NCBI GenBank assembly: GCA_021784375.1
Contig: JAJXSV010000137.1
Coordinates: 1 to 6,174, forward strand
Origin: Actinomycetes bacterium
Lineage (GTDB): Bacteria > Actinomycetota > Actinomycetes > S36-B12 > UBA5976
Length of the DNA stretch: 6,174 nt
Reading direction: 5' to 3'
The notes below the pieces were generated by a model. It did no database searches and was not told the DNA's origin. It saw nothing but the letters and a program-made list of their open reading frames with translations. This document shows, in pieces, positions 1 to 5,476 of the stretch. The first letter of the stretch is position 1. Each line of letters begins with the position of its first letter. Both the position numbers and the translations under genes were made by a program.

Positions 1-924
1 CGGGGTGGTGCCGGTGTTGGTGACCAGGTAGGTCCAGGTCACGGCGTCACCGGTGAGGATGGTCGGGCCGTCCGCGCCGTTGGTGAGCTTGTTGATGGAA
101 ACGGCAGGCGTCGGCGTGACGTTCGGGCTCTTGAGCGGGACGGTCTGGGCTCCGCTCGTCAGGTGGATCGGCATTGCCGCGGGCGCACCACTGGCCGCGA
201 TGATGTCACCGGACATCAACTGTGCGTACATGTTGCCTGTGGGACTGGAGTTCGGCAGGCAAGCGACGTGGACGTCTGTGCGGATCACCAGCGACTCACC
301 TGCGGTGAAGTGTTGGACGGTCACGGTGTCGAGCAGTTCGCTCTTCTGCACGAACACGGCGCCCGTGAGTGATGAGGCGTCGGACAAGGTGGCATCCATC
401 CCTGGATCGATCATGGCCGCGTCGGAAGTGTCCGACTCAAGCAGGTCAACGACCGGTGGGTTGTTCAGGCTCACCGAATGCACCTGATCCAGTGCCACAC
501 CCTCTTGGCCGGTTGCGTATGCGGTGAAGTCGTACTTCAACTGCAGGGTCTGGTCCCCGGCGAGAACAGTCGCGGTGGTGCTGTCCATCGTGACCTTGGT
601 GAGGAAGGTGACGATGTCATTGCACTTGTAATCGCCGGATTGCAGCGAGGTGACGATGTCGAGGTTGGTCTTGCCCGCGTCATAGGCGCCACCGCCGACG
701 TTGTGGTAGTAGGAGGTCGGCTCCGATGCCACGAACGTCTCGGAGTAGTCGGACGCCGTGGGATAGATGGTCGGCGCCGCCGAAGCCGCTGGCGCCGCGC
801 CCACCAGGACGCCCGATAGCAAGGTCAACGTCGCAGTGACCGAGGCGACGCCCGACTGCCAGCGCCGCGCGCCATTCCAGAAGGGACTTGCCTTGGAAAG
901 CATGTCGTTTCCGTGAATGCTCAT
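1..924 (-). CDS. Secreted surface protein, N-terminal part (signal peptide, unknown region, start of a DUF11/DUF7507-like repeat); cut by the window edge
   Basis: The minus-strand frame is open from ATG at 924 to base 1 (308 codons, no stop), so the C-terminus lies outside the window. The start is fixed by AGGAGG at 932-937, 7 nt upstream. Residues 1-49 look like a Sec signal peptide: a longish basic n-region (K11, R20, R21), a hydrophobic stretch around 26-41, and an AxA cleavage site near ASA (47-49). Residues 50-270 are Thr/Ser/Asp-rich, beta-like, and contain only two cysteines (C101, C222), which could form a disulfide outside the cell; I do not recognise this part. From about residue 275 the sequence (AVSINKLTNGADG, then VTWTYLVTNTGTTP at 295-308) resembles the opening of the Ig-like repeats (DUF11, DUF7507) common in large bacterial surface proteins. 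More repeats, and perhaps a wall anchor, would be expected beyond the edge. An adhesive or structural surface role is inference. The gene lies downstream of a LuxR-type regulator on the same strand. Confidence 0.8.
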   Translation of the reverse strand, partial: MSIHGNDMLSKASPFWNGARRWQSGVASVTATLTLLSGVLVGAAPAASAAPTIYPTASDYSETFVASEPTSYYHNVGGGAYDAGKTNLDIVTSLQSGDYKCNDIVTFLTKVTMDSTTATVLAGDQTLQLKYDFTAYATGQEGVALDQVHSVSLNNPPVVDLLESDTSDAAMIDPGMDATLSDASSLTGAVFVQKSELLDTVTVQHFTAGESLVIRTDVHVACLPNSSPTGNMYAQLMSGDIIAASGAPAAMPIHLTSGAQTVPLKSPNVTPTPAVSINKLTNGADGPTILTGDAVTWTYLVTNTGTTP

Positions 925-2706: not shown

Positions 2707-4092
2707 CTAGAGCGGGATGTTGCTGTGGTGCCCGCGCACCACGGGTGTCCGTCGGATCGCAGCGGCCACGGCCCGGCGTGTGAGCGCCGGCTCCACGAGG
2801 TCGTCGACCATCCCCAGATCCACGGCGCGCTGGATGCCGCCCGTGAGTTGCTCGTGCTCCGCCGCCAGTTCGAGTTCGACCTGCTCACGCGTCTCGGGCG
2901 GCACGTCGGCCAGCTTGCGACGGTGCAGGATGCGGATGGCCGCCACCGGTCCCATGACCGCCACCTGCGCCTCCGGCCAGGCGAAGACCTTTGTGGCGCC
3001 AAGGGATTTCGAGTTCATGGCGACGTACGCGCCACCGAAGGCCTTGCGCGTCACGACCGTCACGCGCGGCACCACGCACTCGGCGAAGGCGTGCAGCAGC
3101 TTGGCGCCACGACGGACCACGCCCTCCCACTCCTGGCCGACACCGGGAAGGTACCCGGGCACGTCGACGAGTACCACCAAGGGGATGGCAAAGGCATCGC
3201 ACATGCGCACGAAGCGTCCAGCCTTCTCGGCAGACGACGAGTCGAGGCAGCCACCGAGGCGCAGGGGATTGTTGGCAACGACGCCGACGGTGCGGCCACC
3301 AAGGCGACCGAAGGCGGTGACGATGTTCGGCGCCCACTTCTCGTGCAGTTCCAGCAGTGTGCCCGCGTCGAGGAAGTTCTCGACGAGCGGGTGCACGTCG
3401 TAGGCGCGACGCTTGTTCTCCGGCAGGTACTGCGCGAGGTCCACGTCCTTGATGTCGTCGACGTGAAGCGTGCCCTGCTTGCCGATGAGTGTGGTGAGCG
3501 TGCGCGCCTTGTCGTAGGCGTGCTGCTCGGAGTCGGCGACGATGTGCACCACGCCTGACCGACGTCCGTGTGGCTCGGCGCCGCCGAGGCGCTCCATATC
3601 CACGGCCTCGCCGGTGACCGAGCGCACGACCTCGGGGCCGGTGACGAAGATGCGCCCGTCGGGCGCCAGGATCACGATGTCGGTCAGCGCCGGACCATAG
3701 GCCGCCCCGCCGGCCGCAGGACCGACCACGACGGAGATCTGGGGGATGCGCCCGGAAGCGCGTGTCATGGCCGCGAACACGCGGCCCACGGCGTCCAGCG
3801 ACTCGACACCCTCTCGCAACCGCGCCCCGCCCGAGTGCCAGATCCCGACGACCGGGGAGGAGTCGGCGAGCGCGCGATCGTATGCGGCCTCGATGGCCCG
3901 GCAGCCTGCCGCGCCCATGGCGCCGCCCTGGACCGTGGGATCGCTGCAGAAGGTGACGACGTTGTATCCGTTGACCTCGCCGACCGCACTCAGGAAGCCG
4001 CTCGTATCCTCGGGCGTGATGGGAGTGAACACGCCGTTGTCGTAGAAGGCGGCCAGTCGCGCCTGCGGAGAACGCGGATCGAGTTCCGTCAC
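2707..4092 (-). CDS. accD6: Acyl-CoA carboxylase carboxyltransferase (beta) subunit, AccD6 type
   Basis: This subunit transfers CO2 from biotin on the alpha subunit to acetyl-CoA (and often propionyl-CoA), giving malonyl-CoA (methylmalonyl-CoA) for fatty acid synthesis. It is about 461 residues, matching the short AccD6 branch (mycobacterial AccD6 is 473) rather than the about 530-residue PccB/AccD5 type. Visible N-domain motifs are HSGGAR (86-91) and the oxyanion-hole loop GPAAGGAAYGPALTD (124-138). C-domain motifs are VDVPGYLPGVGQEW (309-322), TRKAFGGAYVAM (348-359), GPVAAIRILHRRK (381-393) and the typical NIPL end. Long stretches agree with mycobacterial AccD6 as I recall it. The residue after GGAY, which governs substrate choice in this family (Asp in PccB, Ile in AccB of Streptomyces), is Val357, which favours acetyl-CoA use (inference). 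It follows fabF in the same direction after 142 bp. Start: AGGGAG at 4101-4106 is 8 nt from GTG 4092 but only 2 nt from in-frame GTG 4098, so I prefer 4092. The biotin-bearing subunit is not in the window. Confidence 0.95.
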   Translation of the reverse strand: MTELDPRSPQARLAAFYDNGVFTPITPEDTSGFLSAVGEVNGYNVVTFCSDPTVQGGAMGAAGCRAIEAAYDRALADSSPVVGIWHSGGARLREGVESLDAVGRVFAAMTRASGRIPQISVVVGPAAGGAAYGPALTDIVILAPDGRIFVTGPEVVRSVTGEAVDMERLGGAEPHGRRSGVVHIVADSEQHAYDKARTLTTLIGKQGTLHVDDIKDVDLAQYLPENKRRAYDVHPLVENFLDAGTLLELHEKWAPNIVTAFGRLGGRTVGVVANNPLRLGGCLDSSSAEKAGRFVRMCDAFAIPLVVLVDVPGYLPGVGQEWEGVVRRGAKLLHAFAECVVPRVTVVTRKAFGGAYVAMNSKSLGATKVFAWPEAQVAVMGPVAAIRILHRRKLADVPPETREQVELELAAEHEQLTGGIQRAVDLGMVDDLVEPALTRRAVAAAIRRTPVVRGHHSNIPL

Positions 4093-4100
4093 CGTCACTG

Positions 4101-4106
4101 CTCCCT
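4101..4106 (-). promoter_or_regulatory. Ribosome binding site of accD6, deciding between two GTG starts
   Basis: AGGGAG lies 2 nt before GTG 4098 and 8 nt before the in-frame GTG 4092. The second spacing is normal, so 4092 is the better start; the other start would add only two residues. Confidence 0.5.
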
Positions 4107-4118
4107 ATCTGTAGCCAC

Positions 4119-4162
4119 GTTGTTCAGGATCCGCCCGCATTCCGGTGCATTCGTGAACAACG
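4119..4162. repeat. 44-bp inverted-repeat-bounded element, copy 1 (proximal to accD6)
   Basis: This is identical base for base to 4179-4222, exactly 60 bp away. The ends are 8-bp inverted repeats, GTTGTTCA (4119-4126) and TGAACAAC (4154-4161), extended to 9 bp in this copy by C4118/G4162. The 27-bp interior contains GCATTC twice with a 10-bp period (4137-4142, 4147-4152). It ends 13 nt upstream of the accD6 Shine-Dalgarno site. It could be a paired operator, an RNA hairpin in the fabF-accD6 message, or a small dispersed repeat. It does not encode protein. Confidence 0.85.
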
Positions 4163-4178
4163 CTGAAGCTCTCGCGCG

Positions 4179-4222
4179 GTTGTTCAGGATCCGCCCGCAT
4201 TCCGGTGCATTCGTGAACAACG
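4179..4222. repeat. 44-bp inverted-repeat-bounded element, copy 2 (proximal to fabF)
   Basis: This is the second exact copy, with arms at 4179-4186 and 4214-4221 and GCATTC at 4197-4202 and 4207-4212. It begins 18 nt after the fabF stop codon. The two copies are separated by 16 bp (4163-4178) of unrelated sequence, and identity stops within a base of the inverted-repeat ends on both sides. That suggests the bounded element is the unit, not a random tandem duplication. No target-site duplication flanks either copy. Confidence 0.85.
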
Positions 4223-4240
4223 GCTGCATGCGCGGGCAGG

Positions 4241-5476
4241 TTATGCGGTCGTGAAGATGACGGCGACGTCGTGACCGCCGAAGCCGAAGGAGTTGTTCAA
4301 GGCTGCCAGGTCACCCGTCGGCAAAGGCCGCGCAGTGTTCACGACGACGTCGATGCCGAGGCCGTCCTCGATGTCGGTGATGTTGATCGTCGGGGGAGCG
4401 ATGCGGTGGTGCAACGCGAGTATCGAGAAGATCGACTCCATGGCGCCGGCACCGCCGAGCATGTGCCCGGTCATGGACTTGGTGCCCGACACGATGACGT
4501 TGGCCGCGTGCGCTCCCAGCCCGGCGCGGATGGCCTTGGCCTCGGCCACGTCGCCCGCAGGTGTCGAGGTGGCGTGCGCATTCACGTGCACGATGTCGGA
4601 GGCCGACAGCGACGCATCCGCCAGTGCCGCCTGGATGGCACGCATAGCGCCGCGTCCCTCCGGCTCGGGCTGTGCGATGTCATGGCCATCGGACGTCATA
4701 CCGGCACCGGCATACACGCCGTAGATGCGGGCCCCGCGGGCCTTCGCGTGCTCCTCGGATTCGAGGACGAGCGAGGCCGCCCCCTCCGCCATGACGAAGC
4801 CGTCACGAGACTTGTCATAGGGCCGCGACGCCGTCGCCGGGTCGTCGTTGCGCGTCGACAGCGCGCGCATGACAGCGAAGGAGGCGATGGGCATGGGGTG
4901 GATCGGTGCCTCAGTGCCGCCGACGATGACCACGTCCGCGCGCCCGTCTGTGATCATGCGCGCGCCGACGACCACCGCCTCTGCGCCGGATGCGCAAGCG
5001 GAGACCGGGCAGTGCACACCCGCGCGCGCGCCGAACTCGAGCCCCACCCAGGCGGCCGGGCCATTGGGCATGAGTTGGGGTACCGCCATCACGGGGACGC
5101 GATTCCAGCCCCGTTCGCGCAGCGTGTCGTAGTTGTTGAGCAGGGATGTGACGCCGCCGATGCCCGTGGCATAGGAGACGCCCAGGCGATCGCGGTCGAA
5201 GTCGTCACCGAGCCCGGCGTCGGCCCAGGCCTCGCGTGAGGCGATGACCGCGAACTGCTGTGAGCGATCGAGGCGACGGGCCTTCTGCGGTTCCAGCCCC
5301 TGCTCGAGCGGCTCCACGACGGCTAGTCCGGCGAAGTGCACCGGGAGGTCCTGCACCCACTCGTAGGGGATGTTCCGGATGCCCGACTTGCCGGCGATCG
5401 CGTTCGCCCACGTCTCAGGCGCGGTGCCGCCAAGTGGCGACGTCGCACCGATACCGGTCACAACGACTCTCGTCAT
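4241..5476 (-). CDS. fabF: Beta-ketoacyl-ACP synthase II (KAS II)
   Basis: This enzyme elongates fatty acids by condensing acyl-ACP with malonyl-ACP, releasing CO2; it acts in the cytoplasm. It is a full-length 411-residue thiolase-fold protein. The catalytic set is intact: nucleophile Cys161 in SACASG, His301 in VNAHATSTP, Lys333 in GTKSMTGH and His338 in the same motif. The C-terminal NSFGFGGHDVAV carries the usual gatekeeper Phe399. Only one KAS of this type is present, unlike mycobacteria, where kasA and kasB are adjacent. ATG 5476 is preceded by AAGGTG at 5482-5487, 5 nt away. The gene lies 84 bp downstream of acpP and 142 bp upstream of accD6, all in one direction, and probably belongs to the same operon; the hairpin behind acpP may lower its expression relative to the carrier protein. 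The stop is TAA. Confidence 0.96.
   Translation of the reverse strand: MTRVVVTGIGATSPLGGTAPETWANAIAGKSGIRNIPYEWVQDLPVHFAGLAVVEPLEQGLEPQKARRLDRSQQFAVIASREAWADAGLGDDFDRDRLGVSYATGIGGVTSLLNNYDTLRERGWNRVPVMAVPQLMPNGPAAWVGLEFGARAGVHCPVSACASGAEAVVVGARMITDGRADVVIVGGTEAPIHPMPIASFAVMRALSTRNDDPATASRPYDKSRDGFVMAEGAASLVLESEEHAKARGARIYGVYAGAGMTSDGHDIAQPEPEGRGAMRAIQAALADASLSASDIVHVNAHATSTPAGDVAEAKAIRAGLGAHAANVIVSGTKSMTGHMLGGAGAMESIFSILALHHRIAPPTINITDIEDGLGIDVVVNTARPLPTGDLAALNNSFGFGGHDVAVIFTTA

Follow-up and report, generated by a model that had tools for sequence, protein, structure and literature searches.

In its available part, PMC6006769 describes the REPtron as a set of extragenic palindromes, single and paired, that are dispersed in few to many copies and share their sequence with the palindromes flanking a nuclease-type gene. 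According to the same part of that source, Actinobacteridae carry only subclass 1.1 tnpAY1. The window analysed here, a stretch of 6,174 nt of actinobacterial DNA taken at its full length, contains two short palindromic repeats in the gap between fabF and accD6. Like REP/REPIN elements and their TnpAREP (RAYT) partner, the palindromes of the window family are short, extragenic, and dispersed, occur singly and in pairs, and flank a nuclease-type gene. However, the enzyme in the present case is an AbiEi-DUF559 protein and not an HUH Y1 protein; PF01797 matched neither of the two genomes of the genus (0/2, both drafts), with the control positive in 5/14, and a RAYT/IS200 origin was rejected. Unlike in REP sequences, no GTAG/GTGG or CGTC tag was seen at the hairpin foot when the flanks were inspected by eye, and the flanks had no tetranucleotide tag in common. 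The window copies are direct repeats and not inverted as in REPINs, and the pair orientation of the C57 and C114 copies in the genome G001, judged by eye, is uncertain since these copies are near-palindromic. MITEs resemble the present elements in having terminal inverted repeats at the unit ends and in their present/absent differences, but the unit here is 43 nt or a 104-bp pair, and no consistent target duplication was recognized when the flanks were compared by eye.

It appears, with a probability that we put at roughly 0.55, that the window repeats belong, as dispersed and non-autonomous copies, to a palindrome family living in a REP-like partnership, in which a nuclease-type gene is associated with its own palindromes.

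The repeat pair between fabF and accD6

A repeat search of positions 3900-4500 returned exactly two direct repeats of 44 nt (4119-4162 and 4179-4222), 100% identical, separated by 16 bp, and with a period of 60. This exact 44-bp duplication is beyond chance. The earlier note had described two exact 44-bp inverted-repeat elements: the number of copies, their identity over 44 bp, the period, and the perfect 8-bp arms all hold, but the palindrome proper is 43 nt, GTTGTTCA-N27-TGAACAAC, with both arms perfect in both copies. The pair occupies most of the 142-bp gap between the two genes and ends 20 bp ahead of the accD6 frame (Table 1). A DUF3145 gene (2155-2703) lies convergent with accD6, their ends being a few bases apart.

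Table 1. Positions of the repeat copies, their arms, and the neighbouring genes in the window
Feature	Position	Strand	Evidence
Element copy adjoining accD6, 43-nt palindrome	4119..4161	-	covariance model R1, 57.1 bits at 4117-4163 minus (copy in training set)
Element copy adjoining fabF, identical 43-nt palindrome, orientation as other copy	4179..4221	-	R1, 60.8 bits at 4177-4223 minus (copy in training set)
Outer arm GTTGTTCA, copy 1	4119..4126	+	
Outer arm TGAACAAC, copy 1	4154..4161	+	
Outer arm GTTGTTCA, copy 2	4179..4186	+	
Outer arm TGAACAAC, copy 2	4214..4221	+	
17-nt spacer separating the 43-nt palindromes (18 nt in G001 pairs)	4162..4178	.	
Beta-ketoacyl synthase, fabF/kas type; upstream neighbour in transcript	4241..5476	-	Pfam ketoacyl-synt, 6e-49
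Carboxyltransferase, accD6 type; downstream neighbour in transcript	2707..4098	-	Pfam Carboxyl_trans, 1.5e-122

A single window copy folds well both as RNA (z -4.2 and -4.1 for the two strands, with 0/200 dinucleotide shuffles as good) and as DNA (z -3.3 and -4.5 against shuffles), and a 136-nt stretch with both copies folds less strikingly (z -2.3; 5/200 shuffles). A misassembly of the window is unlikely, because pairs with an even spacing of 61 bp are present three times in an independent draft genome, G001. Rfam gave no match in the window up to an E-value of 1, and in five related loci it gave two tRNAs and two sub-threshold matches, none of which lay at the elements. The covariance model did not match a look-alike at window positions 460-490. 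A DnaA-box cluster was also considered and rejected: near dnaA, in what we take to be oriC, TTRTCCACA accounts for 6/9 of the TTRTNCA matches in G001 and 4/5 in the genome G002, and the arms of the element read TTGTTCA/TTGTGCA.

Distribution of the family in related genomes

From 109 AccD6 relatives, 80 loci were retained for comparison, and the pattern GTTGTNCA-N15..40-TGNACAAC was absent from all of them. The two closest relatives, L001 (91% identity, genome G001) and L002 (88%, genome G002), have short fabF-accD6 gaps without the repeats, so compared across the genus as the earlier note had proposed, the window pair reads as an insertion relative to the related AccD6 loci. Judging from the AccD6 identities and the common element, the window probably belongs to the same genus as G001 and G002, which are the two genomes of that genus in the collection, both drafts.

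The search for the element in relatives, also proposed earlier, recovered eight copies in G001 and two in G002. All eight in G001 are perfect copies of arm-N27-arm (control 0), each with an interior of 27 nt although a spacer of 15-40 was permitted, and G001 alone among ten relatives matches exactly. The two copies in G002 have a matched change in the arms, GTTGTGCA/TGCACAAC, and again N27 although 18-38 was permitted. When position 6 was left free and N27 was fixed, 5/166 genomes of the order matched; G001 (eight) and G002 (two) had paired arms, and the other three had one match each with position 6 unpaired, so that no genome among the other 164 of the order had paired arms with N27. In 394 genomes of the class, a pattern with 9-bp arms, which recovers only 6/8 copies of G001, matched G001 and, unpaired, G307; G002 lay outside that sample. 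A covariance model built from 12 copies (every known one) returned the same copies in 43 genomes of the family, together with three weak matches. With two arm mismatches allowed, six of ten genomes matched (nine in G001, three each in G002, G003, and G004, two each in G005 and G010), the controls gave one match in G009 and three in G010, and only the eight G001 and two G002 copies were retained. Single matches in G025 and G033 have another interior length and each lies within an open frame, those in G003, G004, G092, and G307 have position 6 unpaired, and G039 and C62 of G001 are weak model matches, the latter within an open frame; none of these was kept in the family.

Therefore, since copies occur at other loci in G001 and G002 and none at the accD6 loci of relatives, the window repeats represent a repeat family and not an accD6 switch, and of the two explanations offered in the earlier note, the settling of a small repeat family at this place stands. 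The other, control of accD6 through a FasR/MabR-type regulator, has in its favour that the pair ends just ahead of the accD6 frame. It is largely refuted by the distribution, and we consider it barely credible: the same element lies beside unrelated genes and at two sites between convergent genes, none of the 80 AccD6 loci matches, and neither a sigma-70-like promoter nor an intrinsic terminator (a G+C stem with a U run after it) was found in window positions 4000-4400.

Several outside sources for the family were rejected. By blastn at an E-value of 0.1, no match was found in plasmids or phages. Viral contigs gave 19 N27 and nine N26 matches, and the N27 set looks like chance only as a set: of the 13 centred pairs, 1-6 are present per interior, and five interiors have 5 or 6, overlapping the 5-8 of the family. 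One N26 match (L087) has 11 centred pairs. A longer element with the arms as its ends was likewise rejected. In 1.11 Mb of G001, 22 and 13 occurrences of the two arms lie outside the elements (30 and 21 in total; about 9.5 expected for each), and in two cases the arms form a pair with a spacing within 3.5 kb. The frames there presumably encode NADH dehydrogenase subunits, a SpoIID-like, and an LCP-like protein, with no transposase among them.

Structure, conservation, and placement of the copies

Six of the eight copies in G001 form three pairs with a 61-bp period, and two are single. The 104-bp element pair is present twice in G001 with two differences, and the likeness stops within 2 bp of the arms, which bears out the earlier suggestion of a discrete unit. 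The copy between two pirin genes is common to G001 (C57P) and G002 and represents one orthologous site; between the two genomes its arms and length are conserved, one arm pair differs on both sides, and most of the interior and of the flanks has changed. Another G002 copy lies between ilvN and ilvC, where the gap of G001 can be aligned over the right half, without the arms. Sequences in this gap of G001 (L178) and at L115:1-57 resemble decayed element halves.

Across the window-family copies, which are related so that fold and pairing counts are not independent, 7/9 outer pairs are invariant. As a set, the interiors are more palindromic than shuffles (64/130 pairs against a mean of 36.0, sd 5.0; 0/2000), but singly just 3/10 beat shuffles by energy at 0.05, and no advantage in folding over shuffles is seen for the interiors of C57a, C57c, C57P (plus strand), C114a, and C114b. 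When whole copies were folded in the orientation of the alignment, seven of eight further copies (C57c and C57d left out) had z-scores of -3.6 to -5.7, and C114b had -1.1. Where the neighbours are co-directional (six copies), the interior taken by itself is stabler on the transcribed strand in five, a bias that is suggestive only; the whole pirin copy of G002 is equally stable on both strands. Covariation in the window family is thin: its score was reached by 24/500 shuffles and its number of paired cells by 92/500, and the RNAalifold covariation term is +0.08.

The neighbours of the window family include pirin, DinB, DUF559, MFS, ilvN-ilvC, and DUF5318 genes. With gene ends taken from open frames and the pirin starts set by hand, the nearest stop codon is 19 nt away in the window, 4 and 12 nt at C57ab (convergent genes), 9 nt at C57cd, 10 nt at C57P, 11 nt at the ilvN copy of G002, 47 nt at its pirin copy, and 72 and 113 nt at C114 (convergent genes). 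Overall, five of the seven assessable sites lie 4-19 nt after a stop codon, and seven of eight lie outside likely coding parts. C88 falls within an open frame, in its 5' part; the DUF5318 domain of this frame begins only at residue 110.

The invariant arms, the fixed interior of 27 bp, and the pair period of 60-61 would suit a double-stranded operator or nucleoid site bound by a dimeric regulator. We regard such a site as very improbable, given the two sites between convergent genes, the unrelated neighbours, and the longer near-perfect palindromes of the sister families described below.

Nuclease-type genes flanked by their own palindromes

In G001, the two copies of the 104-bp pair enclose a gene (L113:6661-7638) that encodes a two-domain protein, with an AbiEi-like DNA-binding part and a DUF559 nuclease-like part. 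It is the probable master gene of the window family. A relative in G002 (L155:810-1769), which adjoins ilvD, is 46.5% identical to it and is flanked by a second palindrome family (L155:714-761 and 1790-1888), a different 41-nt palindrome GTGTACGCAGATT...AATCTGCGTACAC present once to the left of the gene and as a tandem pair of period 51 to its right. With a profile built from 120 relatives, nine AbiEi-DUF559 genes were located in the searched DNA: L113, L155, L191, L242, L041, L005, L004, L276, and L270.

The association was assessed by comparing the left and right flanks (at least 250 bp per side) of frames of at least 450 nt, chosen greedily by length, with blastn at E<1e-4. Among the pieces of G001 and G002, 7/841 frames had a repeat shared by both flanks, and five of the seven were L113, L155, L191 (scored via an overlapping frame on the opposite strand), L242, and L276; all five testable AbiEi-DUF559 genes were therefore positive, against 2/836 other genes (Fisher p 6e-12, or 1e-7 for the three genes not used in forming the idea). 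The other two positives were L180, with a palindrome family of its own, and L116:6110. In the 80 AccD6 loci, 9/539 frames were positive including L004 and L005, which leaves 7/537 other genes (p 2.5e-4 for L004 and L005, which occupy a single site behind accD6 and do not count as independent). L041 was positive with bounds set by hand (4.7e-10) and was missed automatically, a longer frame covering it. Thus, as in a REPtron, 8/8 testable AbiEi-DUF559 genes, from G001, G002, and other Actinomycetota, are flanked on both sides, each by repeats of its own sequence. The ninth gene, L270, begins at a contig end, and a palindrome was seen by eye on its visible side. In this sample of draft genomes, with nine nuclease-type genes, eight of them testable and mostly from one genus, AbiEi-DUF559 genes are associated with their own flanking repeats; the association itself would fit movement of either by the other.

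The AlphaFold model of the L113 protein has a mean pLDDT of 87.3 and a pTM of 0.81. Its best Foldseek match in the PDB, and the sole one at E<=0.001, is an AbiEi antitoxin (6y8q, E 3.5e-5), and the PADLOC AbiEi models match six of six tested proteins. The N-terminal part resembles the antitoxin of the AbiE toxin-antitoxin system, but the protein here differs from it by its nuclease-like part. Matches of the C-terminal part to nucleases are statistically weak; they include the catalytic domain of the homing endonuclease I-Bth0305I (3r3p, E 0.14, probability 0.99, TM 0.68 by target), R2 retrotransposon proteins, and viral endonucleases. Residues E221, D253, E266, D268, and G269 (an E, D, E-x-D motif) are invariant in 48 aligned sequences and equally across seven of the flanked genes, drawn from both subgroups and without L041 and L004. 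In this acidic set and its predicted fold, the C-terminal part is like the Vsr/EDxHD homing endonucleases and may cleave DNA; unlike them, it is fused to an AbiEi-like part, and the gene is free-standing between palindromes, with no intron or split host gene seen. In Pfam, DUF559 is uneven among the proteins: L113 is over the cut-off (with AbiEi_4 under it), L276 and L191 are under it, and L270 and L041 have no match. L041 looks broken, because its frame enters the palindrome ahead of the E-x-D motif; in this Virgisporangium locus, the AbiEi-type frame (L041:7385-8243) lies behind accD6. The source records name the relatives only endonuclease-domain, AbiEi-type, or hypothetical proteins. In plasmids, the L113 and L155 proteins had no match and the L191 protein had one partial match (Tsukamurella); the L191 protein had no match in phages, and a viral scan with the L155 protein gave no locus.

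The main rival to such a partnership is that the gene homes into the palindromes. In that case, AbiEi-DUF559 would behave like the gene of a homing endonuclease, with palindromes that already exist and are spread by something else as its target sites, and insertion followed by repair would produce the copies on both sides. Besides the two-sided flanking itself, the resemblance to I-Bth0305I, weak as its E-value is, would fit homing, as would the position of the gene behind accD6 in L004 and L005 and the abundance in G001 of a 61-nt palindrome family without an adjoining AbiEi-DUF559 gene. We nevertheless hold homing to be unlikely, since each gene has its own palindrome sequence, which fits joint travel of gene and palindrome better, and since full element pairs lie on both sides of L113.

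Sister palindromes and dispersed copies

The flanking palindromes are mostly clear and 41-64 nt long (64 nt for L242, 61 nt for L191), and those of L005 and L004 are 35-58 nt. Upstream of L041 lies a 48-nt palindrome whose partner is decayed. L276 (4765-6307, G002) has four repeats of about 75-80 nt distributed on both sides of the gene, which are only loosely palindromic, with one relative at L273:3875. The layout seen in the window family, in which the outer arms stay invariant and the interior varies but remains complementary, recurs in the sister families.

Dispersed copies were searched by blastn at an E-value of 0.01 in 1.11 Mb of the about 2.0 Mb of G001 and in 0.25 Mb of G002. The L242 palindrome was found at five further sites, one of them truncated where a contig stops, that of L191 at three, that of L270 at four, and that of L276 at one, and a pattern search placed the window family at three G001 sites away from the L113 flanks (C57P, C88, and C114). 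The likeness to a REPtron may be partial here: the L155 palindrome had no dispersed copy in the 0.25 Mb of G002. In the same 0.25 Mb, no master gene was found for the GTTGTGCA copies. By rough frame calls, with exceptions and spurious overlaps, most of the dispersed copies examined lie near gene ends.

The flank-positive L180 of G001 is a small gene with a 61-nt near-perfect palindrome, GCCGACGGCTCC..., on both sides (277-337 and 664-724), and this family is present at ten other loci. Its outer arms are nearly invariant in seven aligned copies, and two-sided changes keep pairing at 6/26 pairs (0/500 shuffles); for the L242 palindrome, such changes are less clear (10/500 shuffles). No AbiEi-DUF559 gene adjoins the L180 family in the searched DNA. 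Therefore, palindromes of this kind also occur without an AbiEi-DUF559 neighbour.

The pairing changes of the L180 family, the frequent position of the window family shortly after stop codons, and the pirin copy retained in place in two species with its arms and length conserved would all agree with independent stem-loops at 3' ends, that is, REP-like mRNA ends or weak terminators, where nuclease-type genes were merely acquired and parked. Such an origin seems quite improbable to us, more so than homing, since gene-specific repeats are shared by the flanks of nuclease-type genes and almost never by the flanks of other genes.

Possible mechanism and significance

A possible course of events in the REP-like partnership can be described as follows. 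The N-terminal part may recognise the invariant outer arms, and the nuclease part may cut at the palindrome. Through repair or recombination, new sites would then receive a copy of the palindrome, and sometimes of the gene. Most of these sites would lie close behind genes, where a stem-loop past the stop codon would do little harm. One such pair would have settled between fabF and accD6 in the window. Once transcribed, it would form two stem-loops behind fabF, and it may shift the FabF:AccD6 ratio. Both the copying by the nuclease and any effect on the fabF-accD6 mRNA are what we infer from the arrangement of genes and repeats.

A more general proposal, to which we give somewhat less than even odds, is that proteins with an AbiEi-type DNA-binding domain and a Vsr/EDxHD-type nuclease copy their own palindromes of 41-64 nt, with lineage-specific arms, and so leave dispersed hairpins behind actinobacterial genes. 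REP/RAYT would then have been reinvented with an unrelated enzyme, and the arms would shift with the specificity of the protein (from GTTGTTCA to GTTGTGCA).

Among the matches listed in a literature search, which covered few subscription papers, there was no window palindrome family and no link between DUF559 and palindromes. For a group with no TnpAREP reported in the available part of PMC6006769, the association offers an enzyme that can be tested as the partner of short palindromic repeats, and it offers a possible role for AbiEi-DUF559 proteins. If the nuclease moves the palindromes, the mobility of such repeats has arisen with a second enzyme unrelated to the first. The gene-specific flanking repeats hint at a new route by which small repeats spread in bacterial genomes. 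The window repeats themselves need no explanation specific to accD6.

Repeats were also observed at other accD6 loci. By eye, tandem or palindromic repeats lie directly behind accD6 in L002, L003, and L019, and in a Geodermatophilus locus (L029:5908-7371) one repeat is common to both flanks of accD6.
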